DNA from: Capillimicrobium parvum
Lineage (GTDB): Bacteria > Actinomycetota > Thermoleophilia > Solirubrobacterales > Solirubrobacteraceae
Length of the DNA stretch: 64,000 nt
Direction of reading: 5' to 3'
NCBI RefSeq assembly: GCF_021172045.1
Contig: NZ_CP087164.1
Location: forward strand, 1 to 64,000
The translations under genes and the position numbers were made by a program. Every line of letters starts with the position of its first letter. The stretch's first letter is position 1. Positions 23,163-53,873 of this stretch are shown in pieces. The notes under the pieces are model-generated. The model saw only the letters and a program-made list of their open reading frames with translations, did no database searches and had not been told where the DNA came from.

Positions 23163-23270
23163 GTGAGGCCCTCGGGAGAGCGCGGACCATTCGCTGCCAG
23201 CCCAATATTCAGATGCATCTTTCGCGATCGCCGGTCCGCTCTTCGAGGGGCCTCCGATAAGATGCGGTGA
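23163..23270 (+). CDS. Candidate 35-residue ORF coupled to lysR
   Basis: A GTG preceded by GGGGAGG three bases upstream opens a 35-codon frame starting MRPSGERGPFAAS and ending with a TGA that overlaps the LysR GTG (GTGA). The MRP-x-G start resembles the 19-codon micro-cistrons, and the stretch just before it (GACCGGCGACCTCATCGTC) resembles the end of the second pstP-rodA unit. It may be a rearranged relative or a simple leader peptide; no family was recognised. Confidence 0.35.
   Translation: MRPSGERGPFAASPIFRCIFRDRRSALRGASDKMR
23211..23220. promoter_or_regulatory. Perfect palindrome upstream of lysR
   Basis: AGATGCATCT, a perfect 10-bp palindrome in an AT-richer patch 47 bases before the LysR start. 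It could be an autoregulatory site, but it also falls within the candidate 35-codon frame. Confidence 0.3.
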
Positions 23271-24160
23271 TCACCGAGCTCCGGCACCTGCGGTACTTCT
23301 CTGCGGTCGCGGCGCGTCTCAGCTTTCGCCAGGCCGCGCGCGACCTTCACGTTGCGCAGCCGGCGCTGTCCCAGCAGATCCGGGCGCTCGAGCAGCAGCT
23401 CGGCGTGACGGTGTTCGACCGATCGAGCCGTCCGATCGCGCTCACCGACGCGGGGATGGCGCTGCTCGTGCACACGCGCCGCATCCTCGCCGACGTGTCG
23501 CTCATGCGTCAGGAGCTCGAGCGCCTGAGCGCTCCGCCGGACGCGACGCTCACCGTCGGGGCGATGCAGTACCTGGCGTATCTCGAGCTGCCCGATCTGA
23601 TCGCATCCTTCCAGCGGCTGCATCAGACGATCGACCTGCGTGTGCGGGTCGGCAACACCGGCGAGCTGTTCGCGATGCTCGCCGCCGGCGAGGCCGACTG
23701 CATCATCTGCCACCGCGGTGACGACGGGCTGCCGGAGGGGCTCGCCTCCCACGCCCTGCGAACCGAGCGTATCGTGCTCGTCAGCTCCGTCGACGATCCC
23801 CTCGGAGACGCCGACACCGTCCAGCTCAAGTCCTTGGAGCACGTCCCGTTCATCACGTTCCGCGACGGCGCGAGCATCCGCACGGCGCTCGAAGAGGCCG
23901 CCGGCCGGGCAGGCTTCGTCCCGCGAGTGGTCGTGGAGAGCGCCGACCTGGCAACGGGGATCGAGCTCGTCGCACGGGGTCTCGGCGTGACGGTGGTGCC
24001 GCGACGATTCGCCATATCCCAGGCGGACCGCGTTCGTTACGCGGACCTGGGGCCCGTTCCGCTGGTGCGTACGGTGGCGCTCGTGTGGCCGACCGAGTCA
24101 GCAGCCGTGCCGCCGCTGGCGCAGTTCATCACCCACACGACGAGCACGATCTCCGACTAG
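23267..24160 (+). CDS. LysR-family transcriptional regulator
   Basis: 297 residues: an N-terminal winged helix-turn-helix (about 1-62; LRHLRYFSAVA, SFRQAARDLHVAQPALSQQIRALE) and a C-terminal effector-binding domain (about 90-290) of periplasmic-binding-protein fold. The GTG start gives the conserved N-terminus. It is the only recognisable transcription factor in the 33-kb catabolic block and therefore the best candidate regulator, but no divergently transcribed target lies next to it: ddl is upstream on the same strand, and hyuB converges, overlapping its last four bases. The effector is unknown. Confidence 0.93.
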   Translation: MITELRHLRYFSAVAARLSFRQAARDLHVAQPALSQQIRALEQQLGVTVFDRSSRPIALTDAGMALLVHTRRILADVSLMRQELERLSAPPDATLTVGAMQYLAYLELPDLIASFQRLHQTIDLRVRVGNTGELFAMLAAGEADCIICHRGDDGLPEGLASHALRTERIVLVSSVDDPLGDADTVQLKSLEHVPFITFRDGASIRTALEEAAGRAGFVPRVVVESADLATGIELVARGLGVTVVPRRFAISQADRVRYADLGPVPLVRTVALVWPTESAAVPPLAQFITHTTSTISD

Positions 24161-26454
24161 GAGGCAAGCTGGAGCGCGGCCACGTCGAGCTCGACGGCGT
24201 GCAGCGACGGATCCCCTGTCATCGCGATCTCGGCCTCGAACTGGACGGCGCACGACGGGCAGAAGTACTGCCGCAGTTCGGCCGTGTCGGTCATCCCGTA
24301 GCGGGCCGGGTCGGTCCCGCGGGGCAGGTCGGACACCGGCGTCGCGCGCTGCCGTGTGTAGGTCTTGTAGTTCTCGGTCGCGCTGCACAGCACGTGGTGG
24401 CACCGCTCGCACGCGATCACGGCGCCGCTCTGCGCCGCAACGATCTCGAGCGCCTCGGAGTAGGGCGCGCGGGTGGGGTCCGAGCTCACGACCGGCACGG
24501 ATGCGACCGGACCCAGATCGCACGCGAGTCGCTCGGCACGGACGGCGTCTCGCCGCTCCGTCGTCGCTACTTCGTCGACCGCACCGGAGTCGGTGAGGGT
24601 CACGCCGTACACGGATTCGGCGACGGCCCGCGACACGTGCCCGTTCGCGACGTCCAGCGCGACGCGGGCGGCCTCCCGCTCGAGCGGATCGCCGAAGCCG
24701 CCCGACCCGGTGACGACGGTCGCGTAGAGGTCGTCGCGGCCCTGGCGGTCGTTGCCCTTGAACTCCGGGTACTCGATGGCGCCGGCGACGTCCATGATGT
24801 CGGTCGGCATCTCGCCCCGGGCGAAGAGCTCCCGGTGAGACGCGTGGCGGTTCATGACGTACTCGATCGCCCCGCCCGGATGGCCTCCGCCGATGCCGTT
24901 GGGCGCCGGGAGCGTCACGCCGTGGGTGAACATCAGGTGCCCCATGTCGTCCGGCGAGTTGTGTAGCGCGTACGCGAACTCGACCCCCGTGCCACCGCGG
25001 TACCGGCCGGCGCCTCCACCATCGACTGCCTCGCGACGGTAGAGGTACAGCATGGGGTACAGCGACTCATTGACCTCCACCATCGGAGTCTTCGCTCTCG
25101 GGCAGCAGACGCTCCCTCCGCTGTCGACTCCGTCCTTGTAGCTGCGCGCGCCGATGCCGCTCGCCATCGGGTCCATCAGCAGGGCGACCATCGGGTCGTT
25201 GTGCTGGTTGGTCCCGGACATCATCGTGAAGGCCCAGTTGGCGTAGTGGTGGCCGACGACCTCCCTGCGGAGCGTCGGGTGCGTGAGGAGCATGCGGTTG
25301 ACGCACTGCTGAGCCACGTCCATCGCGAAGAACACGCCCGACGAGGTCGCGCAGCTGACCAGCGCCGGGTACTCGCAGTCGACCAGCGTCCCCGGCTCGG
25401 TCTCGAACCTGACTGCGCGCAGGATGCCACCGGTCGCCCAGGGGATGTCGAAGCAGAGGTACGGCAGCAGCGGCGTCATCATCGCGGCGCGGAAGGCGCC
25501 GAAGGTGCAGCTGAGAATCCCGCTCTGCGGATCCGTGCCCTCGGTGTTGAACGTGAGGGTGTCGCCCTCCTTGATGAGGTTCAGCTGGACCTTGTACAGG
25601 TGCGTGTCGCCGGCGCGGTCCTTGTCGACGATCTGGACGTGGCGGAACGTCCCGTCCGGGATCTCGCGGATCCGCTCGCGGAACAGGCGCTCGGCATCGC
25701 GCATCGTCCGCTTCATCACGGTGTGCACCAGGTCGGCGCCGTATCGATCAATCAGCTCGCGCAGGCGGCTGTGCGCGACGTTGTTGCCGGCGATCTGTGC
25801 GCGCAGGTCGAGCGACGTCGAGTCGGGCATCCGCGACTGTCGCCTCCAGAGCTGCTCGAGGTCCTCGCGCATGCGGCCCTCTTCGACGATCCGCACGTAC
25901 GGGAACGGCGTCGGCTCGTGCGCCGGCTCGGTTGCGTCGACGCAGAAGCTGCCGCCGTTGATGCCGCCCACGTCGGCGTGGTGCAGCATGGACGCCGTCC
26001 ACGCGAACAGCTTGCCGTCCACGAAAAGCGGCGCCATGACGGCGAGGTCGTTCATGTGCCCGGCGCCCTCGTAGGGGTCGTTGCAGATGTAGATGTCCCC
26101 GGGGCGGACGCCGGGCGACACGCCGCGCGAGGTGAGGACGCGCTTGATCATCGCGTCGAGGATCACGCCGTGCCACTGGACGTAGGGGCCGACCGTGACC
26201 ACGCTGCCGATCTCGTCGGCGATGACCATGTTGAAGTCGCCGGCGAACGCCGCGATCGGGGAGCCGGACACGTGCATCATCGTCGTGCCCTGCTCCTCGT
26301 TGATCTGCGACACCCGGTTGCGCAGGACCTCGTAAGTGACCGGATCGACAGCGTCCATCGCAGCGTCCAGGTCGTCGACCGCGTAGAGGTCGACACCGAG
26401 CTCGGCGCCGTCCGCGGTGACGTCCGGAAGTCCTGGCCTGGCAACAACGGTCAT
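24157..26454 (-). CDS. HyuB-type hydantoinase/carboxylase subunit with zinc-binding tail
   Basis: 765 residues. Residues about 30-620 belong to the hydantoinase B/acetone carboxylase alpha family (YEVLRNRVSQINEEQG, DIYICNDPYEGAGHMNDL, NTEGTDPQSG, GGGAGRYRGGTG). The last 90 residues carry CERC-x4-C and, about 45 residues later, CPSC, resembling the small zinc-binding gamma subunit of acetone and acetophenone carboxylases fused to the large subunit. With HyuA it would use ATP either to carboxylate a ketone or to hydrolyse a cyclic amide; the zinc tail favours carboxylation, but this is inference. ATG at 26454, with GGAAGAG upstream, eight bases after hyuA. Last gene of the operon. Confidence 0.85.
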   Translation of the reverse strand: MTVVARPGLPDVTADGAELGVDLYAVDDLDAAMDAVDPVTYEVLRNRVSQINEEQGTTMMHVSGSPIAAFAGDFNMVIADEIGSVVTVGPYVQWHGVILDAMIKRVLTSRGVSPGVRPGDIYICNDPYEGAGHMNDLAVMAPLFVDGKLFAWTASMLHHADVGGINGGSFCVDATEPAHEPTPFPYVRIVEEGRMREDLEQLWRRQSRMPDSTSLDLRAQIAGNNVAHSRLRELIDRYGADLVHTVMKRTMRDAERLFRERIREIPDGTFRHVQIVDKDRAGDTHLYKVQLNLIKEGDTLTFNTEGTDPQSGILSCTFGAFRAAMMTPLLPYLCFDIPWATGGILRAVRFETEPGTLVDCEYPALVSCATSSGVFFAMDVAQQCVNRMLLTHPTLRREVVGHHYANWAFTMMSGTNQHNDPMVALLMDPMASGIGARSYKDGVDSGGSVCCPRAKTPMVEVNESLYPMLYLYRREAVDGGGAGRYRGGTGVEFAYALHNSPDDMGHLMFTHGVTLPAPNGIGGGHPGGAIEYVMNRHASHRELFARGEMPTDIMDVAGAIEYPEFKGNDRQGRDDLYATVVTGSGGFGDPLEREAARVALDVANGHVSRAVAESVYGVTLTDSGAVDEVATTERRDAVRAERLACDLGPVASVPVVSSDPTRAPYSEALEIVAAQSGAVIACERCHHVLCSATENYKTYTRQRATPVSDLPRGTDPARYGMTDTAELRQYFCPSCAVQFEAEIAMTGDPSLHAVELDVAALQLAS

Positions 26455-40520: not shown

Positions 40521-41089
40521 GTACGCACGCCCCCTCTCCCGGTTGGCGTGTTCTCCGAAAACCGCGCCACTCCGTCACCGCCGTGGCCGACAGGATCCAT
40601 TCCACTATCTCCGTCGATCGAGCGCAAAGTCCGATCACGACTCATGCCGATAAGCAGCGGCGATCAACGCAGGCGCGGGCAACGCGGGGCCGTGCTCGCC
40701 GACGTGGGCTGACGGACCGGCGAGCGGTCCGCGGGATGGCCGGCGCAGGCGTGCGGCGGCGATCCTGCCGCATCCCGTGATCTTGACGAAAGGCCTGTAA
40801 ATCATGATGATCTCTTCCGAGCATCGAGGCTCGGAGGGGTGGTGCTCTGGCGACGGCCGATCGGCTGTTCCGCGGCTCACGCGCACAGGATCTCGCGGTC
40901 GGCGGCGCTCGAGGATGTCGGCGGAGGACGCTTCGTGGACGACCCTCAGCCACCGTCCGGGCTCGATTGACAAGGCCGTGCGCGGCGACTATATGTGGCT
41001 GGGCCGACGCTCTCGCTCCGTCACCGCGAAAAATGACTGAGGCAAATGTGACAAATGGTGTGCGAGTCAGCGCAAATCGGAGAGTCACT
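40521..41089. other. Divergent regulatory region between the two catabolic operons
   Basis: 569 bases between the ABC ATPase (minus) and the small-protein gene (plus). It holds a strong plus-strand promoter at 40967-40995 and an AT-richer leader of about 90 bases with two CAAATG-type repeats (41044, 41053). An imperfect inverted repeat (GCGGGATG/CATCCCG) lies at about 40731-40777. No good minus-strand promoter for the ATPase operon was seen. Short open frames in it look like chance. Confidence 0.5.
40967..40995 (+). promoter_or_regulatory. Consensus-like promoter of the cyclase-P450 operon
   Basis: TTGACA (40967-40972), 17-base spacer, TATATG (40990-40995). The -35 is a perfect housekeeping-sigma hexamer and the -10 matches TATAAT at four or five positions. 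The expected transcript would have a leader of about 90 bases. The -35 context (GATTGACAA) is repeated at 52615. Confidence 0.7.
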
Positions 41090-43472: not shown

Positions 43473-44273
43473 ATGGCACCACATCGAGCACTGACCGCCG
43501 CATGGGATGCGGACCGCCCGGCGATCGGAGGCTGGATCACGACCGGCTCGGAGATGCTGATCGAGGCCTACGGCGCGGCGGGGTACGACTACGTCGGCAT
43601 CGACTGCCAGCACTCGACCTTCGACGAGCGCGACGCCGCGCAGGTGCTGCGCCGCCTGCCGGCCTGCCCGTTCGCGATGTTCGTCCGCGTGTCGAAGAAC
43701 GATCCGGCGCTCATCGGCCGCGTCGTCGACGCGGGCGCCGAAGGCGTCATCGTGCCGATGGTCGACACGGCGCAGGAGGCCGCCGCGGCGGTCGCCGCCA
43801 TCCGCTTCCCCCCCGAGGGCCAGCGCAGCTTCGGCCCCGGGCGGGCCGACATGGGCACCACGACCGACGCCATCGAGAGCCGCGTCAGCCTCTTCGTGAT
43901 GATCGAGACGACCGACGGGCTGGCGAACGTGGAGGAGATCTGCGCGGTGCCCGGTCTCACCGGGGTGTACGTGGGGCCGGGCGACCTCTCGGTGAGCCTG
44001 GGTCTCGCCCCGATGGACGGGTTCTCGACCGACCAGATCGAGGGTCCGCTCGCCACGATCCGGGCCGCCGCGACGGCCCACGACGTCGTCCTGGGCATCC
44101 ACTCGGCGGGTGGGGCGGACGCCGCCCGCTGGGCGCGGCTCGGTTGCCGGCTCATCTCGCTCGGGAGCGACATGGCGCTGTTCCGCGCCGCCACGGTCGC
44201 CGACCGCAACACCGCGTTGGACGTCCAGGCGGGCGGGACGCCCGCGCCCGCAACGCCGTACGCGGCGCGCTGA
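43473..44273 (+). CDS. HpcH/HpaI-family aldolase
   Basis: 266 residues, class II pyruvate aldolase fold. Likely active-site residues: DCQH (His base, about 46-49), the Arg of MFVRVSKND, the metal-binding Glu in VMIETTDGLANV and Asp in VGPGDLSVSLG. Such enzymes cleave 4-hydroxy-2-oxoacids to pyruvate and an aldehyde. A relative lies at 53941; the two are only moderately similar. Nine bases after the FMN enzyme; P450 follows 29 bases later. Confidence 0.92.
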   Translation: MAPHRALTAAWDADRPAIGGWITTGSEMLIEAYGAAGYDYVGIDCQHSTFDERDAAQVLRRLPACPFAMFVRVSKNDPALIGRVVDAGAEGVIVPMVDTAQEAAAAVAAIRFPPEGQRSFGPGRADMGTTTDAIESRVSLFVMIETTDGLANVEEICAVPGLTGVYVGPGDLSVSLGLAPMDGFSTDQIEGPLATIRAAATAHDVVLGIHSAGGADAARWARLGCRLISLGSDMALFRAATVADRNTALDVQAGGTPAPATPYAAR

Positions 44274-44302: not shown

Positions 44303-45511
44303 ATGCAACGTGAGACGCGCGACGCCCCGGTGATGGACGTCAACTACTTCACCGAGGAGTGGAACGCGGACCCCTATCCAGGCCTCGAGGCGATCCGCGC
44401 CGCGGGCCCGATCGTGTTCAATCCGCGCACGAACGACTGGATGGTCCCGGGGTACCAGCTAGGCGCCCGGGTGCAGGCGAACGCCCGCAGGTACAAGGCC
44501 GTCGAGGAGCTCGGCCAGCTCTTTGGCGGGATCACCATGGAGTTCGTGGACACGCCGCTCCACCACGAGTTGCGCGGGGTGTGGGCCAAGGACTTCCAGC
44601 GCGAGACGCTTCAGCGGCAGCGCGCGATGATCGACGAAATCGTCGCCACGCGGGTCGGCCCGTTCGTCGAGCGCGTCCGCGACGGCGAGACGGTCGAGGC
44701 GATCGCCAACATGACGCGCGGGATCCCCGTGCTGGTCATCGCGCGCATGCTCGGCGTCTCAGGGGACGACGTCCAGCGCTTCAGCGACTGGAGCGACCGG
44801 ATGGGCGGCATCGTCGCGGGCATGGTCGACGAGTCCCCGGCGGGCGCGGAGATGCTCCAGCGGGGCCTCGACGCCACCGCCGAGCTGAACGCCTTCATCG
44901 CCGAGCAGATCGCCGCGCGGCGCGCGCGACCGACCGGCGACCTCATCTCCGCCATGACCCACTCGGACGTCGCGCGGCGGGTCAGCGAGCAGGATCTCGT
45001 CGCGAGCAACACCCAGCTGGTCTTCGCGGGAAACGAGACGACGGCGAAGCTCATGGCCTCGACGCTCGTGGCCCTGGCGCGGCATCCGGACCAGCGGCAT
45101 GCGATCGTCGCCGATCGCTCGCTCGTGCCGCAGGCGATCGAGGAGGTCCACCGCTGGGAGACCGTGGCCCAGGTCGGCTACCGCGACGTGCACAACGGCG
45201 ACGCGGAGATCGACGGAATCGTGGTGCCCGACGGCTCGCGCGTCTGCATCCTGCTGGGGGCGTGCAACCGGGATGCCGCGCGCTGGGAGGACCCGAGCCG
45301 CTTCGACATCTTCCGGGAGCCGCAGTCGCATCTCGGCTTCGGCTTCGGCATGCACAGCTGCCTGGGCCTCAACCTCGCCCGCCTCGAGCTGGAGGTCTGG
45401 CTCAACCAGATCCTCGACGCCATCCCGGAGTGCGAGCTCGCCGAGGACGTCTCGTACGGCACCAACTTCGTCCTGCGTGCGCCGCTGAGCGTCCACATCC
45501 GCAACCCCTGA
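44303..45511 (+). CDS. Cytochrome P450
   Basis: 402 residues, soluble bacterial class I P450. Heme-binding loop FGFGMHSCLGLNLARLE (Cys about 352), ExxR as EEVHR, and I-helix FAGNETT, which has the acid-alcohol pair as E-T. Length and N-terminus without a membrane anchor fit P450cam-like hydroxylases. Strong ribosome site GGAGGAGAGG eight bases before the ATG. Followed by its own ferredoxin (22 bases) and reductase, forming a complete electron chain. Substrate not predictable by eye. Confidence 0.96.
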   Translation: MQRETRDAPVMDVNYFTEEWNADPYPGLEAIRAAGPIVFNPRTNDWMVPGYQLGARVQANARRYKAVEELGQLFGGITMEFVDTPLHHELRGVWAKDFQRETLQRQRAMIDEIVATRVGPFVERVRDGETVEAIANMTRGIPVLVIARMLGVSGDDVQRFSDWSDRMGGIVAGMVDESPAGAEMLQRGLDATAELNAFIAEQIAARRARPTGDLISAMTHSDVARRVSEQDLVASNTQLVFAGNETTAKLMASTLVALARHPDQRHAIVADRSLVPQAIEEVHRWETVAQVGYRDVHNGDAEIDGIVVPDGSRVCILLGACNRDAARWEDPSRFDIFREPQSHLGFGFGMHSCLGLNLARLELEVWLNQILDAIPECELAEDVSYGTNFVLRAPLSVHIRNP

Positions 45512-45533
45512 TGATCAACCGAGGGAGAGCCTC

Positions 45534-45743
45534 ATGCATGTGACCGTCCAGCGCCCCAAGTGCATCGCCAGCGGGGCCTGCGTCCTCGCCGCGCCGGAGG
45601 TCTTCGATCAGGACGAGGACGGCATCGTCGTCCTCCTGGACGACCATCCGACCGAGGAGCATCACGACGAGGTCAGGGAAGCGGTGCGGGCGTGCCCCGC
45701 GGCTGTGATCGAGGCGTTCGAACCGGATGTGCATGCCACGTAG
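45534..45743 (+). CDS. [3Fe-4S] ferredoxin for the P450
   Basis: 69 residues; KCIASGAC and RACPAAVI give the three-cysteine pattern C-x5-C...CP of P450-partner 3Fe-4S ferredoxins (cysteines about 10, 16 and 54). Carries electrons from the FAD reductase, whose gene overlaps its last 17 bases, to the P450 encoded upstream. Confidence 0.94.
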   Translation: MHVTVQRPKCIASGACVLAAPEVFDQDEDGIVVLLDDHPTEEHHDEVREAVRACPAAVIEAFEPDVHAT

Positions 45744-46902
45744 GACCACGGTCATCGTCGGCGGGTCGGCGGCCGGGCTGTCGACGGCGGAAGGGCTCCG
45801 GTCAGGTGGGTACGACGGGCACATCGTCATCGTCGGCGACGAGTTCGCCACGCCGTACGATCGACCGCCGCTGTCCAAGCAGATCCTCGCGGGCACGTGG
45901 CCGCCGCATCAGGTGGCCCTCCTGCCGCCCGAGCGCTTCACGGCGCTGAAGGCGCGCTTCCTGCTCGGGACCCGGGCGAGCGGGCTGGACGTGGAACGCC
46001 GGCAGGTCGAGATCGACAACGGGCCGCCGCTGCGGTACGACGATCTCGTGATCGCGACCGGCGTGCGCCCGCGGACGCTTCCGGGGGCGGACCTGCCGGG
46101 CGTCCACGTGTTGCGCACGATGGATAACGCGATCGCCCTGCGAGAGCGCCTGCTCACCACGGGGCACCTGGCAATCGTCGGCGCCGGATTCCTCGGTCTC
46201 GAGGTGGCCGCGACCGCCGCGGCGCTCGGCGTCGGCGTGACGGTCGTCGACCCGCTCGCCGCGCCGATGGTCGCGCAGCTGGGTGCGGCGGCGGCGCAGC
46301 GGCTCGCCGAGCATCATCGTGAGGCCGGCGTCGACCTGCGCACCGGCGTCTCGGTGCGGGAGATCCTGGAGAACGGCGAGGCGGGGCCGGCCCGGCATGT
46401 GGCCGGGATCCGCCTCGGCGACGGCTCCGTCGTGACGGCGGACACGGTCCTCGTGGCCATCGGGTGCGCGCCGGCTGTCGAATGGCTCGAGGGCAGCGCC
46501 CTGGACGTCCGCGACGGCGTGGTCTGCGACACCTGCTGTCGCGCCGCTCCGGGCGTGTGGGCGGCCGGAGACGTGGCGCGATGGCGCCATCCCGGCTATG
46601 ACCGCGAGATGCGGCTCGAGCACCGCGTCAACGCCACCGAGCAGGGGCTCGCGGTCGGACGCGCCATCGCCGCCGGCGAGCCGCGCCCGTTCGCGCCGGT
46701 CCCGTACTTCTGGACCGATCATGGTGACGTTAGGATCCAGGTGATCGGCACGCTCGCCGGCGACATGCACGTCGTCGCGGGAGACCCCGAGGGCGACAGC
46801 TTCGTCCAGCGCTGGGCGATCGACGGCGTGCCGGTCGGCGGCATCGCCTGGAACGCGCCGCGCGCCGCGACCCGCATGCGCGCCGCCCTCAGGCGGGGAT
46901 AG
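45727..46902 (+). CDS. FAD-dependent ferredoxin reductase
   Basis: 391 residues. N-terminal FAD site VIVGGSAAGLSTAEGLR, EPYDRPPLSKQ-like TPYDRPPLSKQILAG, a central NADH site (IVGAGFLGLEVAATAAALG) and a C-terminal FAD motif (GVWAAGDVARW) followed by the wing domain with the FWTDH dipeptide region. Class typical of putidaredoxin/rubredoxin reductases that feed P450 systems. Start ATG 45727 or 45733; both overlap the ferredoxin. Convergent with the HAD gene, whose end it overlaps by 14 bases. Confidence 0.94.
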   Translation: MCMPRRTTVIVGGSAAGLSTAEGLRSGGYDGHIVIVGDEFATPYDRPPLSKQILAGTWPPHQVALLPPERFTALKARFLLGTRASGLDVERRQVEIDNGPPLRYDDLVIATGVRPRTLPGADLPGVHVLRTMDNAIALRERLLTTGHLAIVGAGFLGLEVAATAAALGVGVTVVDPLAAPMVAQLGAAAAQRLAEHHREAGVDLRTGVSVREILENGEAGPARHVAGIRLGDGSVVTADTVLVAIGCAPAVEWLEGSALDVRDGVVCDTCCRAAPGVWAAGDVARWRHPGYDREMRLEHRVNATEQGLAVGRAIAAGEPRPFAPVPYFWTDHGDVRIQVIGTLAGDMHVVAGDPEGDSFVQRWAIDGVPVGGIAWNAPRAATRMRAALRRG

Positions 46903-47647
46903 CGCGCTCCCCGTACGCCCTGCACAGCTGGGTGTCCAGGTCGTGGAGGTCGTGAGCGACGAAGTCCGCCCCGTGCTCGTCCTCGAGATCGGTCGTCTGC
47001 CCCGGTCCGAACTGGGTGGAGCGGATGACGAGCGCGGTCCGCAGGCCGAGGCGCCGGGCGTTCCTGCCGTCCACGTTGTGCGCCGTGACGAGCATCGCTT
47101 CGGCGGGGAGGAGCCCGAGCGCCTCGACCGAGCGCAGGAACGCCTCGGGCTGCGGCTTGTAGGCCCACGCGATCTCGGCGCCCACGATCGCGTCCCAGGT
47201 CAGGCCGCCATGGCGGGCGAGCTCGACCTGGAGGGCGATGTGGCCGTTCGACAACGGTGCGACGACGTGGCTCTCGCGGAGCCGCGCGAGCCCGGAGGGG
47301 ACGTCGGGCCACGGATCGGCGCGGCGCCAGGTGTCGTTGAGCTCGGTCAGTCGCGTCGCCGGGATGCCGTCGAGCCCGAGGTCCGACAGCACCTCGTCGA
47401 GCGCCTCGCGATGAAGGACGTCGAGCGTCCGCCACCCCGAGTGGCGCTCGCGCCGCGGGTTCGCCGCCAGACCCTCGACGTACTTCGCGCGCCACAGGTC
47501 GGCGAACGCCTCCCAATCGACGTCGTCGCGGCCCAGCTCGTGTCCGAGCGCGCGTCCCGCCGCCACGATCGCCGTGCGCCAGTCGACGCATGTCCCGTAG
47601 ACGTCGAAGAGGAGTGCCTTCGGCCGTGCGGACGGCGCGGCCGTCAC
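46889..47647 (-). CDS. Haloacid dehalogenase, type II-like (HAD superfamily)
   Basis: 252 residues. HAD motif I FDVYGTCVDWR (nucleophile Asp about 15), motif II SNGH, motif III Lys in WAYKPQPEAF and motif IV VTAHNVDGRNARRLG, which fits the L-2-haloacid dehalogenase subgroup (AAH-x-D-x-x-x-A). Many members of this subgroup act on other 2-hydroxy- or phospho-acids, so true dehalogenation is unproven. GTG start overlaps the stop of the dehydrogenase upstream (GTGA). Last gene of the minus operon. Confidence 0.85.
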   Translation of the reverse strand: MTAAPSARPKALLFDVYGTCVDWRTAIVAAGRALGHELGRDDVDWEAFADLWRAKYVEGLAANPRRERHSGWRTLDVLHREALDEVLSDLGLDGIPATRLTELNDTWRRADPWPDVPSGLARLRESHVVAPLSNGHIALQVELARHGGLTWDAIVGAEIAWAYKPQPEAFLRSVEALGLLPAEAMLVTAHNVDGRNARRLGLRTALVIRSTQFGPGQTTDLEDEHGADFVAHDLHDLDTQLCRAYGERAIPA

Positions 47648-48723
47648 GCCAGGCGCTCCGCGAAGCGATCCCAGACGTCCGGGTTCACGAGCCGGCGCGG
47701 CCGCTTTCCCTGCAGGGCCCGGACCGTGTCCGTCGCGGCCATCGCCCCGGCGCGCTCGAACGTCTCGGGCGCGGCGCCCGCCACGTGCGGCGTCAGGATG
47801 ACGTTGTCGAGGTCGAAGAGCGGATGCCCGGCCGGCAGCGGTTCGGGGTCGGTGACGTCCAGGCCGGCGCCGGCGAGCTGCCCGCCGCGCAACGCCCGCA
47901 CCAGCGCGTCGGTGTCGACCGTCCCGCCTCGCGACGTGTTGATCAGCACGGCCGCCGGCTTCATCGCCGCGAGAAGGTCCGCGTCGACGACATGCCGCGT
48001 CTCGGCCGTCAGGGGAGCGTGCACGGAGAGGACGTCGGCCCCGGCGGCGACCTCGCCGAGGTCGTCGACCAGGCGAGCGCCGAGCCGCTCCACCTCGACC
48101 GGGTCGGCGTACGGGTCGAAGACGAGGACCTGCATGCCGAAGCCGTCGATGCAGATCCGCGCGACCTCGCGCGCGGTGTACCCGAACGCGATCAGGCCGA
48201 GCGTCTTCGCCCGCAGGAGCCCGGGCCACCCGCCGGTCTCCTGCGACGTCCAGACGCGCTTGTCGCGGTGGGCGGGCCGGTCGACGACCGCCACGCGCCG
48301 CGACAGAGCCAGCATCAGCGCCACGGCGTGCTCGGCCACGGCCGGGTAGTTGTTGCCGGCGGCGTTGACGACGGCGACACCGTGGTCCGTCGCGGCGTCT
48401 ACGTCGATGACGTCGACGCCGGCGCTCGGACAGAAGACCACCTCGAGGTTGGGCGCCCGGTCGAGCAGCGACGCGGTCACCGGGAGCTGGCTGGCGACGC
48501 CGATGGCCGAGAGGACGTGGACGTCGGCCAGGCGCTCCTCCAGGACGCGCTCGATCTGTGCGCGGTAGCCGTCCTGCTGCTCGGGCGATCCTCCCATGAC
48601 GCGCTCCCGCTGCTCCACGTCGAACACGTAGACGAGCTCGAGCCCGGCGTCTTCGAAGATGCGCTCGCTGGTGCCGAAGAGAACGGTGGGGACGAGCACC
48701 CGCTTGCCGGCCGGAGTGATCAC
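47644..48723 (-). CDS. D-2-hydroxyacid dehydrogenase-like protein, degenerate NAD motif
   Basis: 359 residues of the D-isomer-specific 2-hydroxyacid dehydrogenase family. The catalytic triad is in place: Arg in NTSRGGTVD, Glu in DPEPLPAG, His in LTPHVAGA. The Rossmann motif, normally GxGxxG, reads IAFGYTAREVA: two of three glycines are replaced by alanine. It may use NAD weakly or have another role. The N-terminal 60 residues contain FGTSERIFEDAGLELVYVFDVEQ. Adjoins the P450 gene with no gap. Confidence 0.85.
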   Translation of the reverse strand: MITPAGKRVLVPTVLFGTSERIFEDAGLELVYVFDVEQRERVMGGSPEQQDGYRAQIERVLEERLADVHVLSAIGVASQLPVTASLLDRAPNLEVVFCPSAGVDVIDVDAATDHGVAVVNAAGNNYPAVAEHAVALMLALSRRVAVVDRPAHRDKRVWTSQETGGWPGLLRAKTLGLIAFGYTAREVARICIDGFGMQVLVFDPYADPVEVERLGARLVDDLGEVAAGADVLSVHAPLTAETRHVVDADLLAAMKPAAVLINTSRGGTVDTDALVRALRGGQLAGAGLDVTDPEPLPAGHPLFDLDNVILTPHVAGAAPETFERAGAMAATDTVRALQGKRPRRLVNPDVWDRFAERLA

Positions 48724-49995
48724 TCAGCTGTGCTCCTTGATCGCGACCGGCAGGGTGTTGAAGCCGATCTGGAAACTCGACGGACGGCGCAGCGATCGCT
48801 CCGGGAAGCACTCGTACTCCGAGACCCGGGACAGGAACTCCTCGAGCAGGATGCGCCCCTCGAGCTTCGCCAGGTGTACGCCGATGCAGTAGTGCTGGCC
48901 GAGCCCGAACGCGAGCTGTCGGTCGATCGGCCGGTCCCAGATGAACGCGTCGGCGTCCGGGTACTCGCGCTCGTCGCGTGCCGCCGACTGCAGCAGGTAG
49001 GTCACGCGCTGCCCCGCCTTCACCGCTTGGCCCGCGAGCTCCGTGTCCACCAGCGCCGTCCGGCTGAACCACTGTGCGGGGCCGCAGTACCGGAACATCT
49101 CGTTGATCGCGATGCCGCAGTTGCGGGGCAGGTCCACGCGCACCGCGGCCAGCTGATCGGGGTGGCGCCACAGCTCCAGCAGCCCGTGCGCGACGATCTT
49201 CGGAAGCGTCTCGGTGCCGCCCACGAGCAGGCAGAACAGGTTGATCGCCACCTCGCGGTCGGTCAGCTCGCGGCCGCGCATCCGGTAGTCGAGCATCCCG
49301 TCGATCGCCGGCCAGCTGCCGTCCCACCCCGTCTGGCGCCGGCGCGTCACGACCGGCTCGATGAAGTCGGCGCAGGTCTCGAACACGCCGGTGAGATCGA
49401 GGCCCGGCTCGGGACTGTCGGTGCGGGTCGCGCCGTTGATCGCGGCGAGCACGTCCGGAGCGCGCTCCAGCGGGACGTGCAGGATGTGGCACATCGTCGA
49501 TGCCGACACGATCCCGCCATACTCCTGCGTGAGGTCGAACTCACCGCGCGCAAGGAGCGCGTCGAGTCGCTCCCGCGCGACGCCCCGGATGAACGACTCC
49601 AGGCTGTTGACGTGCTTGGGGCGCATCGGCCGCCCGTGAGCCTGGCGGACCTCCTCGTACAGCGTCTGGTCGCCGTCGCCGCCGTCCGCTCCGCCGGGCG
49701 ACACGTCGTGGACGAGATGGTTGAACGGGTCGAGGGGCGGCGGCGGCGGTGTCCCCTGGTTGTGGTGGCGCATGAGCTGTGGATCGACGAGCGTCGTCGA
49801 GTCACACGTCGAGAACGTTCCGTCGCTCCGCGAGAGAAAGTCCCAGACGTCCGCGAACCGGGACAGGTAGAAGGTGTCGTAGCGCTCGGAGTAGTAGACC
49901 GGGAATCGGTCGCGCAACACCCGGTACGAGGGCGCGGGGTCGCGCATCATCTCCGGCGAGAAGGGGTCGTAGGTGAAGTCCTCAATGGCGGACAA
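48724..49995 (-). CDS. Cytochrome P450 with unusual C-helix region
   Basis: 423 residues. Heme loop FGLGQHYCIGVHLAKLEG (Cys about 371), ExxR as NEMFR, I-helix VGGTETL. The usual region after the B-C loop (DPPEH..RRLV...F.P) is replaced by a Pro/Gly/Asp-rich stretch, PPPPPLDPFN...PGGADGGDGD, followed by VRQAHGRPMRPKHV, so the heme-propionate Trp/His-x-x-x-Arg helix looks altered. The start is TTG at 49995, supported by CAGGAG eight bases upstream. Reductase and ferredoxin genes lie upstream on the same transcript. Confidence 0.93.
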   Translation of the reverse strand: MSAIEDFTYDPFSPEMMRDPAPSYRVLRDRFPVYYSERYDTFYLSRFADVWDFLSRSDGTFSTCDSTTLVDPQLMRHHNQGTPPPPPLDPFNHLVHDVSPGGADGGDGDQTLYEEVRQAHGRPMRPKHVNSLESFIRGVARERLDALLARGEFDLTQEYGGIVSASTMCHILHVPLERAPDVLAAINGATRTDSPEPGLDLTGVFETCADFIEPVVTRRRQTGWDGSWPAIDGMLDYRMRGRELTDREVAINLFCLLVGGTETLPKIVAHGLLELWRHPDQLAAVRVDLPRNCGIAINEMFRYCGPAQWFSRTALVDTELAGQAVKAGQRVTYLLQSAARDEREYPDADAFIWDRPIDRQLAFGLGQHYCIGVHLAKLEGRILLEEFLSRVSEYECFPERSLRRPSSFQIGFNTLPVAIKEHS

Positions 49996-50043: not shown

Positions 50044-51246
50044 TCAGGCGCCCAGCGCGACGAGCTCGTTGACGGCGTCCTCCCACGCGGCGGTGTCGGC
50101 CAGCAGCCGCCGGCAAGCGTTCAGCTCCCGCACGCAACCGATCGCGAACGCCCCGATGAGACGGTCGTCGCGCCGGAAGAGGGCGACGAAGCGCTCGGCT
50201 TCGATCGAGCCGACCACGACCTCGACCTCGTCGTACGCCGCCGCCGTGCCCACGAGCTGGAGCTTGCGGCCATATTGGTCGGACCAGAACCACGGCACGG
50301 GCGCGTAGCGTCCCACGTCGTGGCCGAGCAGGCGGCGTGCGGCATGCCCGGCCTGGCGTATGGCGTTGTCCCAGTGCTCGACGCGTTGCAACAGGCCCGT
50401 GTCGGGCGACGGCCAGCGGGCCACGTCGCCGGCGACGACGACGCCGGGCGCCGCGAGACACGACGGGTCGCAGACGACGCCGTCCTCGATCACGAGGCCG
50501 GAGTCCTGCAGCCACGCGGTGCACGGCTCGACGCCGATACCCAGCACCACCACGTCGGCCGCGAGCTCGTCGCCGCCGCTGAGGCACACGGACGTCACGC
50601 GCGCCGAGGCGTCGCCACGTAGCCGCTCGACGAGCGAGCCGGTGCGGACCTCGACGCCGCGCGAACGGTGGATCGCCCCGACCGCGTCGCCGAGGTCGGG
50701 GCCGAGGATCCGCTCGAACGGCGCGGAGAGGGCCTCGAGGATGGTCACCGGCACGTCCAGCGCGACGCAGGCGGCCGCCACCTCCGCGCCGATGAAGCCC
50801 CCGCCGACGATGGCGACGTGCCGGGGGCCCTCGGCGAGGTCGCTTGCGAGCGCGATGCTGTCGTCGAGCGTTCGCAGGACGTGGACGCCCGCGAGCGCGT
50901 CACCGAGGCCGCGCCGCGGCTTCGCGCCGGTCGCGATCACGACGCCGTCCTGGAAGACCTGGGTGGATCCGTCGTCGAGGCGCACGGCGCGCGCCTCGGC
51001 GTCAAGGCCGATCGCAGCGCGGCCGAGCCGCCACTCGGCGCCCAGTGCCTCGGCGTCGAACGGAAGCATCACGTCCCCGCGCGCCCACTCGCCGGTCAGC
51101 ACCTGCTTGGACAGGGGAGGCCGGTCGTAGGGCTCCAGCGGCTCGTCGCCGACGATCGTGAGGGGTCCCGCGTACCCCTCCTGCCGCAGGGCCAGTGCGG
51201 CGCTGAGACCGGCGTGCGAGGCGCCGATGACCCCGATGCCGCACAC
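50044..51246 (-). CDS. FAD-dependent ferredoxin reductase, second copy
   Basis: 400 residues, same family as the protein at 45727: GVIGASHAGLSAALALRQEG, PYDRPPLSKQVL, NAD-binding IVGGGFIGAEVAAAC, GVVVAGDVARWPSP and FWSDQYG. The two reductases are diverged, so each probably serves its own ferredoxin. GTG start three bases upstream of the preceding gene's stop region (PTE gene ends at 51250). P450 follows after 48 bases. Confidence 0.93.
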   Translation of the reverse strand: MCGIGVIGASHAGLSAALALRQEGYAGPLTIVGDEPLEPYDRPPLSKQVLTGEWARGDVMLPFDAEALGAEWRLGRAAIGLDAEARAVRLDDGSTQVFQDGVVIATGAKPRRGLGDALAGVHVLRTLDDSIALASDLAEGPRHVAIVGGGFIGAEVAAACVALDVPVTILEALSAPFERILGPDLGDAVGAIHRSRGVEVRTGSLVERLRGDASARVTSVCLSGGDELAADVVVLGIGVEPCTAWLQDSGLVIEDGVVCDPSCLAAPGVVVAGDVARWPSPDTGLLQRVEHWDNAIRQAGHAARRLLGHDVGRYAPVPWFWSDQYGRKLQLVGTAAAYDEVEVVVGSIEAERFVALFRRDDRLIGAFAIGCVRELNACRRLLADTAAWEDAVNELVALGA

Positions 51247-51249
51247 GCG

Positions 51250-52230
51250 TCAGTACCCACCGCGCGCGCCGAGGACCCGCGCGGGGTTCCCGACCAGCAT
51301 CATGTCGATCTGCTCGTCGGTGACCCCGTGCTCGCGCAGCGCGGGAAGCACATCGCCGGAGATGTGCGTCTGGACCCACACGGCCGGCATCTCGATCGGC
51401 GGTGCCGCGAGGTCGTACCAGTCGGTGTGGATGGTGTAGTCGTGCGACAGGACGATCCGGTCCGCGTATCCGAGCTCGCACAGGCGCGCGACGGTCGCCA
51501 CGCGCTGCTGCATGTCGGGAAACCCCTCTCCATAGAGGCCGAAGCGGTCGGCGCCGATCACCGACCCGGCGTCCATCAGCCGCTTCAGGTACTCGATGTC
51601 GGTCGAGTCGCCGCTGTGCCCGATGATGACGCGGGTGAGGTCGACTCCCTCCTCCGTGAAGATGCGCTGCTGGTCGAGCCCGTTGCGATCCCCGGCGACG
51701 GTATGGGTGCTGATCGGTACGCCCGTCTCCCGATGTGCCCGCGCGCACGCGCGCAGCACCCGCTCGATGACCGGCGTCATCCCGGGGCGATCGGTGGCGC
51801 ATTTGATCAACCCGGCCTTGACACCGGTCTCAGCGACACCCTCGCGGATGTCATGAACGAACATGTCGACGAGAACGTCGCGGCCCGCCGGGGGCCGGAG
51901 GTGGACGAAGAAGGGCGCTTCACCGTAGGTGTAATACCCCGTGGACACCACGATGTTGATGTCCACCTGCTCGTTGACCCGCTTGACGAGGGCCACGTCA
52001 CGGCCGTGCCCGAACGCCGTCGCATCGACCACCGTGTCGATGCCGGACTCCTTGACGGCCTGGAGCTGGCGCACCGCGGATCGCACCACCGCATCCCGGC
52101 CTTCGGGCCAGCTCAGGTGAGGGTAGTCGTGCGCGACCTCATGGGTCACGTTGACGATGTGCTCGTGCATCAGGGTCGCGCCCAGCGACTGGACGTCGAC
52201 CGGCCCGCGAACGGTCTCCACCTGCGACAT
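51250..52230 (-). CDS. Phosphotriesterase-family amidohydrolase (lactonase-like)
   Basis: 326 residues, PTE family TIM barrel with a complete binuclear metal site: HEH in LMHEHIVNV (about 22-24), carboxylated Lys in GLIKCATD, His in STHTVAG, His in IIGHSGD and Asp in VLSHDYT. Phosphotriesterase-like lactonases hydrolyse lactones; true organophosphate hydrolysis is rare. Placed between a ferredoxin and its reductase, so a lactone produced by P450 oxidation is the natural candidate substrate (inference). ATG at 52230; two bases separate it from the ferredoxin stop. Confidence 0.92.
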   Translation of the reverse strand: MSQVETVRGPVDVQSLGATLMHEHIVNVTHEVAHDYPHLSWPEGRDAVVRSAVRQLQAVKESGIDTVVDATAFGHGRDVALVKRVNEQVDINIVVSTGYYTYGEAPFFVHLRPPAGRDVLVDMFVHDIREGVAETGVKAGLIKCATDRPGMTPVIERVLRACARAHRETGVPISTHTVAGDRNGLDQQRIFTEEGVDLTRVIIGHSGDSTDIEYLKRLMDAGSVIGADRFGLYGEGFPDMQQRVATVARLCELGYADRIVLSHDYTIHTDWYDLAAPPIEMPAVWVQTHISGDVLPALREHGVTDEQIDMMLVGNPARVLGARGGY

Positions 52231-52232
52231 CG

Positions 52233-52424
52233 TCAGCCGTCGACGGTGATGGCGCGCTTGGGGCACGCCCGGGCCGCGGCCTCGACGGCAGGCCGCAACT
52301 CGGCGGGAACGTCCTCTTGTAATACGACCAGATTGTCGTCGTCGTCGATCGCAAAGACCGTGGGTGCCTCGACGGAGCAAACGCCGTTACCGTCGCATAG
52401 CCCCCAGTTGACCACAACTCGCAT
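52233..52424 (-). CDS. [3Fe-4S] ferredoxin, second copy
   Basis: 63 residues, LCDGNGVC and RACPKRAI giving C-x5-C...CP, as in P450-partner ferredoxins. First gene of the minus operon, 30 bases downstream of the -10 of a promoter overlapped by an inverted repeat. Partner of the reductase at 50044 and the P450 at 48724. Confidence 0.94.
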   Translation of the reverse strand: MRVVVNWGLCDGNGVCSVEAPTVFAIDDDDNLVVLQEDVPAELRPAVEAAARACPKRAITVDG

Positions 52425-52444
52425 TTAACCCCCCACACGCGATG

Positions 52445-52470
52445 TGCGCCTCGAGTATCGCTGAGGCGCA
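52445..52470. promoter_or_regulatory. Inverted repeat over the ferredoxin-operon promoter
   Basis: TGCGCCTC (52445-52452) and GAGGCGCA (52463-52470), perfect 8-bp arms with a 10-base spacer that contains the whole -10 hexamer of the minus promoter. The geometry suits a dimeric repressor operator. No dedicated repressor gene is close by. Confidence 0.6.
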
Positions 52471-52482
52471 ATGACGTGGCAA
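52454..52482 (-). promoter_or_regulatory. Promoter of the ferredoxin-PTE-P450 operon
   Basis: Minus-strand -35 TTGCCA (52482-52477) and -10 GATACT (52459-52454) separated by 17 bases. The predicted transcript starts about 20-25 bases before the ferredoxin ATG. Confidence 0.6.
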
Positions 52483-52616
52483 AGACGTGTTGGATCTCAT
52501 TTGATAAGGGCCCGTGATCGAGACCGGCGGAGGATCGTCCGCCCTGCACGAAAATTTCCGATTCCATCGCGCTTTACCAGACGCAGGTGTGGTCCAACGC
52601 GTTGTCGTGTACGTGA

Positions 52617-52646
52617 TTGACAACGCCGGCGACGAAGGGATATACC
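52617..52646 (+). promoter_or_regulatory. Promoter of the binding-protein operon
   Basis: TTGACA (52617-52622) and TATACC (52641-52646), 18-base spacer, 58 bases before the lipoprotein ATG. The -35 context GATTGACAA matches the promoter at 40967. Confidence 0.6.
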
Positions 52647-52703
52647 GGGTTCGGGCGTCGCCGGCGGCGCCGCGGTCTCATTCGCCGAGGAGGAGAAGGG
52701 AAC

Positions 52704-53873
52704 ATGAGGAAAGTTCAGCGACTGCTGGGCGCGGGGGTGATCTGCGTAGCAATCATTTCAGTGTTTGCCGCGTGTGGTTCGTCGGATGACGGGGATAGCG
52801 GTACGGCAAGCACCGGAGCGACCACGTCCGCGTCCACGAGCGCGTCGAGCGGTGGAGAGAGCACGGATAACAGCGTGATCTCCAAGTACTCGACACCCGG
52901 TACCGAGATTGCGCCCAAAGTGGCCGGCCTGAAACCGTTCAAGGCAAAGGAGGGGGCGTCCATCTACAACATCGCGTGCGCCCTGTCGATCGAGGCGTGT
53001 CAGGCCACGGCGAACGGCATGAAGGAGGCCAGCCAGGCGCTCGGTTACAAGTACGAGCAGTGTGACTCCGGGTCGTCGCCGGAGGCGCCGGGTCAGTGCT
53101 TCACCAACGCGATCAACGCCAAGCCCGACGTCATCATCGCGCAGGCGGTGGGACTTAACCAGGCGGCGGACGGGTATGCCGCGGCGAGGAAGGCCGGCAT
53201 TCCGATCGTCGCATTCGGCACGGGTGACAAGGCGGACGGAACGGTCGCGAACATCCAGATCGCAGACCAGCTGTGCCACGACCAGGGCAAGATCCTGGCC
53301 GATGCCATCGCGGAGGACAGCGATGGGAAGGCGAACGTCCTGTTCCTCGGAGACACGGCGATCGCCTGCGATGTGTCACGAACGAAGGGCTTCGAGGACC
53401 AGCTCAAGCAGGCGTGCCCGGACTGTGATTACAACAAGCTCATCTTTGACCTGAATACGATGCAGCAGTCGCTGCCGCCCCAGCTGCAGGCCGAGCTGAA
53501 CAAGAACCCGAACATCAACTGGATCGTCGGCGCCAACGACGCCCCCGCGGCGGTCGCGGTCACCCAGGTGATGCAGGCCGGCAAGCAGGACCAGATCAGC
53601 GTCGCCGGCATGGACGGGCAGCCGTCGAACGTGACGTTCATGCTCAAGAAGCAGGTGCAGAAGTTCGACCTGACGAACCCGTTCGCGGATGCTCCGTGGA
53701 GCGCGGTGGATGCGGCGGCCCGGATCTACTCGGGCGAGGAGGTTCCCAAGTCGCTGCAGTCGCCGAACTACCTGCTCACGTGGGACAACGTCAAGAGCCT
53801 GGGCCCGTCGAAGACGTACAACGGTCCCGACGACTACCAGGAGCAGTACAAGGCCATGTGGGGCAAGAGCTAG
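52704..53873 (+). CDS. Sugar-type ABC substrate-binding lipoprotein
   Basis: 389 residues: signal peptide with lipobox VFAACG (lipidated Cys about 24), a Ser/Thr-rich linker (about 25-55) and a two-lobed Peripla_BP_4/RbsB-like domain (about 75-360). It probably binds the imported compound for the RbsC-type permease and RbsA-type ATPase encoded 12 kb away. The mature part has eight cysteines (for example ACALSIEAC, QLCHD, ACPDC), many for this family, suggesting disulfides. Ribosome site GAGGAGAAGGG before the ATG is very strong. Followed by a hairpin. Confidence 0.93.
   Translation: MRKVQRLLGAGVICVAIISVFAACGSSDDGDSGTASTGATTSASTSASSGGESTDNSVISKYSTPGTEIAPKVAGLKPFKAKEGASIYNIACALSIEACQATANGMKEASQALGYKYEQCDSGSSPEAPGQCFTNAINAKPDVIIAQAVGLNQAADGYAAARKAGIPIVAFGTGDKADGTVANIQIADQLCHDQGKILADAIAEDSDGKANVLFLGDTAIACDVSRTKGFEDQLKQACPDCDYNKLIFDLNTMQQSLPPQLQAELNKNPNINWIVGANDAPAAVAVTQVMQAGKQDQISVAGMDGQPSNVTFMLKKQVQKFDLTNPFADAPWSAVDAAARIYSGEEVPKSLQSPNYLLTWDNVKSLGPSKTYNGPDDYQEQYKAMWGKS

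Follow-up and report, generated by a model that had tools for sequence, protein, structure and literature searches.

A perfect inverted repeat around the predicted −10 element of a ferredoxin–cytochrome P450 operon in Capillimicrobium parvum as a candidate operator

In the window (the whole 64,000-nucleotide stretch of Capillimicrobium parvum DNA that was analysed), a 279-bp intergenic region separates a ferredoxin gene on the minus strand (52233..52424; 63 residues; single-cluster 4Fe-4S type; Pfam Fer4_15 and Fer4_13) from its divergent neighbour on the plus strand, which encodes a sugar-type periplasmic binding protein (52704..53873; Peripla_BP_4). The start of the ferredoxin gene is fairly secure because an in-frame TAA directly precedes its ATG on the 5′ side. 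The five genes behind it are closely spaced and all located on the minus strand, encoding a phosphotriesterase-family protein (gene number 2 after the promoter; 51250..52230; Pfam), a ferredoxin reductase-like protein (50044..51246; Pyr_redox_2 and Reductase_C), a cytochrome P450 (48724..49995; Pfam), a member of the D-2-hydroxyacid dehydrogenase family (47644..48723), and a HAD-family hydrolase (46889..47647), the last two assigned from the gene list and Pfam. Judging from the spacing, the dehydrogenase gene probably belongs to the ferredoxin operon, and the hydrolase gene is probably its final member. The genes around the operon look like a catabolic cluster, and the same cluster carries on the plus strand another set of P450, ferredoxin, and reductase genes (44330-46902). 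A relative of the HpcH/HpaI aldolase encoded at 43554-44273 (53-59% identical) is found within ~1.1 kb of the relative of the P450 of 48724-49995 in six of eight other genomes; the two proteins may act in a common pathway. Beside the gene of hydantoinase A, a hydantoinase B protein (24157-26454) has a C-terminal stretch resembling acetone carboxylase gamma (PF08882), which hints at a carboxylase in the catabolic cluster.

The promoter scan called a sole sigma-70-like promoter in 52200-52800, TTGCCA-N17-GATACT on the minus strand, with the −35 hexamer at 52477..52482 and the −10 hexamer, 17 bases from it, at 52454..52459, 29 bases ahead of the ferredoxin ATG; 50 shuffles gave a mean of 0.1 calls. 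With 9 of 12 consensus positions matched, this is a predicted ferredoxin promoter, recognised from the consensus only. A repeat search identified a perfect inverted repeat around its −10 (IR1; 52445..52470, no strand), TGCGCCTC-N10-GAGGCGCA, which reads in full TGCGCCTC GAGTATCGCT GAGGCGCA. Its exact 8-bp arms (52445-52452 and 52463-52470) and spacer of 10 bases are those given in the initial annotation, although the span quoted there, 52445-52482, is right for the start of the repeat only: the repeat ends at 52470, and the longer span also includes the −35. The bracketing of the −10, which had been called exact, holds in that GATACT lies within the spacer, but the hexamer is one base off centre, with flanks of 1 and 3 spacer bases.

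If the start point is assumed to lie ~7 bases after the −10, IR1 would span about −23 to +3; the transcript would then include just ~3 bases of the distal arm, so that the symmetry belongs to the DNA. Such a geometry bears on the possibility that IR1 acts as RNA, either as a leader hairpin or as a terminator. The repeat does fold on the plus strand (−16.4 kcal/mol; z, −3.1) and, with the leader, on the minus strand (−17.3 kcal/mol; z, −1.3), but an RNA role is highly improbable because the predicted start falls in the distal arm, the leader from that start folds at chance level (z, 0.08), no terminator was called, and no Rfam match was found. The flanking genes are also divergent, so that neither reads through IR1 from outside.

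How far IR1 exceeds chance depends on what it is compared with. Among 1000 dinucleotide shuffles of the 279-bp region, 11 contained one perfect 8-bp repeat with a spacer of 10, and 7 reached the observed two repeats with spacers of 3-20; the whole window holds 12 perfect 8-N10-8 repeats versus 3.95 in shuffles, and the IR1 pattern with three mismatches allowed occurs in it at chance level (2 versus 2.33). By contrast, of 66 other sampled intergenic regions from this genome with lengths of 150-400 bp, 21 have at least one perfect 8-bp inverted repeat with a spacer of 3-20, and 7 have at least two (for these counts, and for the tandem counts given below, the IR1 region was trimmed to 52425-52703). 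As a mere repeat, IR1 is thus rare against shuffles but not against the real intergenic DNA of this genome, and its telling feature is the place around the −10, not the presence of a repeat. In 191 other intergenic regions, from which a wider region around IR1 was excluded, 598 of 49,192 hexamer positions (1.2%) are bracketed by a perfect 8-bp repeat with a spacer of 6-20, and 182 of the 49,192 (0.37%) with the bracketing centred within 1 base, base rates that depend on a purpose-built gene finder with errors (it missed the ferredoxin gene), the sample of 192 regions in 464 kb having been delimited with a codon-usage model. Ten promoter-like sites lie upstream of genes in the 464 kb, and the one that is bracketed is the ferredoxin promoter itself. 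Since the genomic DNA is richer in repeats than its shuffles, yet the bracketing has a base rate of 0.37-1.2%, IR1 exceeds chance moderately and not overwhelmingly. Alternatively, IR1 could be a GC-rich repeat that surrounds a −10-like hexamer by chance, which is on balance doubtful. Such a repeat is present in about one third of comparable intergenic regions, no recurrence of IR1 was seen in promoters of the genome, and it was picked from many candidate regions; against this, a given hexamer is bracketed in this way at a rate of 0.4-1.2%, and the region holds two more perfect inverted repeats and a tandem repeat.

The tandem is an 11-bp direct repeat, CACGTCTTTGC-CACGTCATTGC, found by the repeat search over the −35 (52468..52489, minus strand), where it overlaps IR1 by 3 bases and TTGCCA spans the junction of its units. 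The units match at 10 of 11 positions, one helical turn apart, and none of 300 shuffles reached such a tandem; an equally good period-11 tandem occurs in 1 other of 192 intergenic regions, which is of low complexity, and no other match with at most three mismatches was found in the genome. These properties, together with the position of the −35 across the unit junction, would suit a compound site, in which the direct repeat is bound in tandem by an activator in the manner of OmpR/PhoB, or by another protein, with IR1 as a second site or as an extension of the tandem. We consider such a site unlikely, as period 11 was chosen after the tandem had been seen, and periods 10 and 12 give 5 of 192 regions each with a tandem at no more than one mismatch, several of them not of low complexity. 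Furthermore, a direct repeat with the period of OmpR/PhoB-type sites is present near the −35, but it consists of two units only, no second copy of it was found in the genome, and no response regulator was found in the cluster.

On the other side of the region, a second perfect inverted repeat, GCGTTGTC-N12-GACAACGC (52599..52626, no strand), overlaps with its right arm the TTGACA of TTGACA-N18-TATACC (52617..52646, plus strand), which, read by eye, is a candidate promoter for the divergent binding-protein gene; the promoter scan, in which a −10 must end in T, did not call it. The third, CGCCGGCGACG-N21-CGTCGCCGGCG (52624..52666, no strand), brackets TATACC. These two repeats, likewise found by the repeat search, are not rare either, because 20 with arms of at least 11 and spacers of at most 30 occur in 50,147 other intergenic bases. 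The sequence TTGACA-N17-TATATG is located upstream of the DUF1059 gene (40965-40995), and 13 of 14 bases around its −35 agree with the binding-protein promoter, a match equalled by 5 of 60 shuffles. Separately, TGNGRTCCAACNCGT was considered as a shared element ahead of each of the two divergent promoters (52485-52499 on the minus strand and 52588-52602 on the plus strand) and was rejected. The pair agrees at 12 of 15 bases; the best 15-base inverted match in the region (13 of 15, palindromes included) is equalled or bettered in 93 of 300 shuffles; and with at most one mismatch the element has 21 places in the genome versus 18 for its reversed control, the 19 outside the region being distributed inside predicted genes (18) and ahead of an ABC ATPase gene (1). 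In its favour, the window holds slightly more places at three mismatches than expected (54 versus 36 in shuffles), a count reached by 1 of 100 shuffles.

A search of the 5.95-Mb genome found intact IR1 (0 mismatches) once. With up to two mismatches, it has 10 places versus 4 for the reversed control, and the 9 further ones, with two mismatches each, are all in predicted genes (8, plus 1 in a 511-codon frame). The 14-base core of IR1 has 394 places versus 248 for the control; 29 of the 393 other places were inspected (all 8 single-mismatch places and the first 21 of those with two mismatches), of which 28 lie within predicted genes and 1 outside, downstream of a hydrolase gene. The search for the same repeat elsewhere in the genome, which the initial annotation had put forward, therefore brought up no second promoter copy of IR1 at up to two mismatches in the whole repeat or among the 29 of 393 core places inspected, and consequently neither a regulon nor an autoregulated partner is in view. 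A regulator, if there is one, would then have IR1 as its single target, or else further sites that have diverged too far or lie among the core places beyond the 29. For the second inverted repeat (52599-52626), considered as a possible mark of a regulon, 130 genome places with at most three mismatches were counted versus 38 for the reversed control, none of the other sites listed having fewer than two mismatches.

No orthologous operon close enough for footprinting was found in the genomes searched, which were sampled by class, phylum, and family with overlap between the samples. The best match of the phosphotriesterase protein in another genome is 48% among 299 genomes of the class and 57% among 396 of the phylum, and no ferredoxin was found near its relatives at the 47 loci listed (~1.5-kb flanks). 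The binding protein has relatives in two others of the 299 genomes of the class (52% and 41%), both alongside ABC transporter and hydantoinase genes, with the ferredoxin operon not present in the stretches read around them. Relatives of the ferredoxin occur in 16 other genomes among the 299 of the class (34-52% over all matches); those of the P450 occur in no other genome among 146 of the family and in 8 others among 396 of the phylum (47-51%), and exact peptide patterns retrieved one P450 relative at 29% from the species collection. The organisation of the operon is absent from all 21 ferredoxin and 8 P450 loci inspected; reductase genes are often found downstream of the ferredoxin at these 21 loci. 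None of the 21 other ferredoxin genes, two of which are in the same genome, is preceded by IR1, and 2 of them have a perfect 8-bp inverted repeat of different sequence (spacer, 6-14) no more than 200 bases upstream.

Among the 31 predicted proteins of 23267-56209, Pfam identified a sole DNA-binding regulator, a LysR-family protein (23267..24160, plus strand), and no DNA-binding regulator domain in the 30 others; an intergenic frame at 40638-40973 has no Pfam match. The earlier observation that the cluster shows no local repressor gene is borne out within this gene list, which is derived from our own codon model, so that a small regulator could escape it as the small ferredoxin gene did. The accompanying assertion that control must come from an unlinked regulator or one of the LysR type found no support: no second promoter copy of IR1 was seen in the genome searches described above, and the region before the LysR gene shares no significant element with that of the ferredoxin. 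The best 14-mer match between the two promoter regions is equalled by 59 of 60 shuffles, and the best 20-mer match by 17 of 60. Sites of LysR-type regulators carry the motif T-N11-A, and those for activation are usually located upstream of the −35. As the single protein of the cluster in which Pfam recognised a DNA-binding regulator domain, the LysR-family protein could be the one that binds IR1 and controls the operon, but we regard this as improbable, as IR1 is positioned over the −10 and T-N11-A cannot sit on its axis because IR1 is of even length; a T-N11-A within a dyad, common to the regulator's own promoter, was not found there.

Based on the arrangement of the DNA, IR1 is best read as a candidate operator for a dimeric repressor whose gene is not linked to the operon, a reading to which we give an even chance. 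If the predicted promoter is in use, the dimer, once bound, would lie over both the −10 and the start point and exclude RNA polymerase until an inducer released it; this inducer might be a substrate of the P450 or of catabolic genes nearby. The two-fold symmetry of a repressor operator overlapping the core promoter is present over promoter elements that are themselves a consensus match. The exact symmetry around the −10 in the sole called promoter, with a bracketing base rate of 0.4-1.2% per hexamer, argues for an operator, as do its being the sole bracketed site of the 10 promoter-like ones, the small part of the distal arm transcribed from the assumed start, the lack of an Rfam match, and the catabolic-looking neighbours. 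Against it stand the frequency of perfect 8-bp repeats between genes (21/66), the single promoter copy seen, the failure to find an orthologous promoter, the 21 other ferredoxin genes without IR1, and the absence of a regulator from the cluster as searched. A more elaborate and rather unlikely extension is that the 279-bp region constitutes a compact double switch, with both divergent promoters under their own exact inverted repeat(s) and one −35 also overlaid by a phased direct repeat; unlinked regulator(s) with intact sites nowhere else in the genome would act there, and a single-target regulator would lock together the uptake and oxidation of one compound. Considered as an operator, IR1 is a real repeat with a plausible role in an ordinary kind of bacterial control, and a repressor over the −10 is a textbook principle. 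If real, it would give a clue to the inducer of a P450/ferredoxin catabolic cluster whose gene order reveals no regulator, and would serve as the bait sequence for that regulator.

Three known systems can be compared with IR1. The CIRCE element, which is bound by HrcA before chaperone genes, has the consensus TTAGCACTC-N9-GAGTGCTAA, and resembles IR1 in its long exact arms, its spacer of ~10, and the inner CTC/GAG ends. It differs in the spacer (9, versus 10 in IR1), in the arms (by eye, 4 of 8 bases agree with the consensus), and in the target, which is here a ferredoxin gene and not a chaperone gene; IR1 has the form 8-N10-8, not the 9-N9-9 of CIRCE. In the operator upstream of P450BM-3, a perfect palindrome is the target of Bm3R1, a repressor of the TetR family that is encoded in the same operon as P450BM-3. 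IR1 is likewise a perfectly symmetric sequence before a P450 gene set, whereas its sequence differs and the repressor lies within the operon in the Bm3R1 system. The P450cam operon, camDCAB, of Pseudomonas putida includes ferredoxin and reductase genes. PMC8706424 names camR as the repressor of camDCAB. According to PMC4592980, CamR, a homologue of TetR, is released from its operator when it binds camphor; the operator, of ~30 bases, is near-palindromic by our reading of the sequence quoted there. The operator sequence of CamR differs from IR1, the arms of which are exact, and camR adjoins the operon in Pseudomonas putida, whereas no TetR-family gene was found next to or within the present operon among the 31 predicted cluster proteins; we therefore do not claim membership of the CamR type, since the adjacent repressor gene is missing here. 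As a P450 system with an operator, for which IR1 would be the candidate here, CamR on the P450cam operon is nevertheless the nearest analogue of the setting of IR1.
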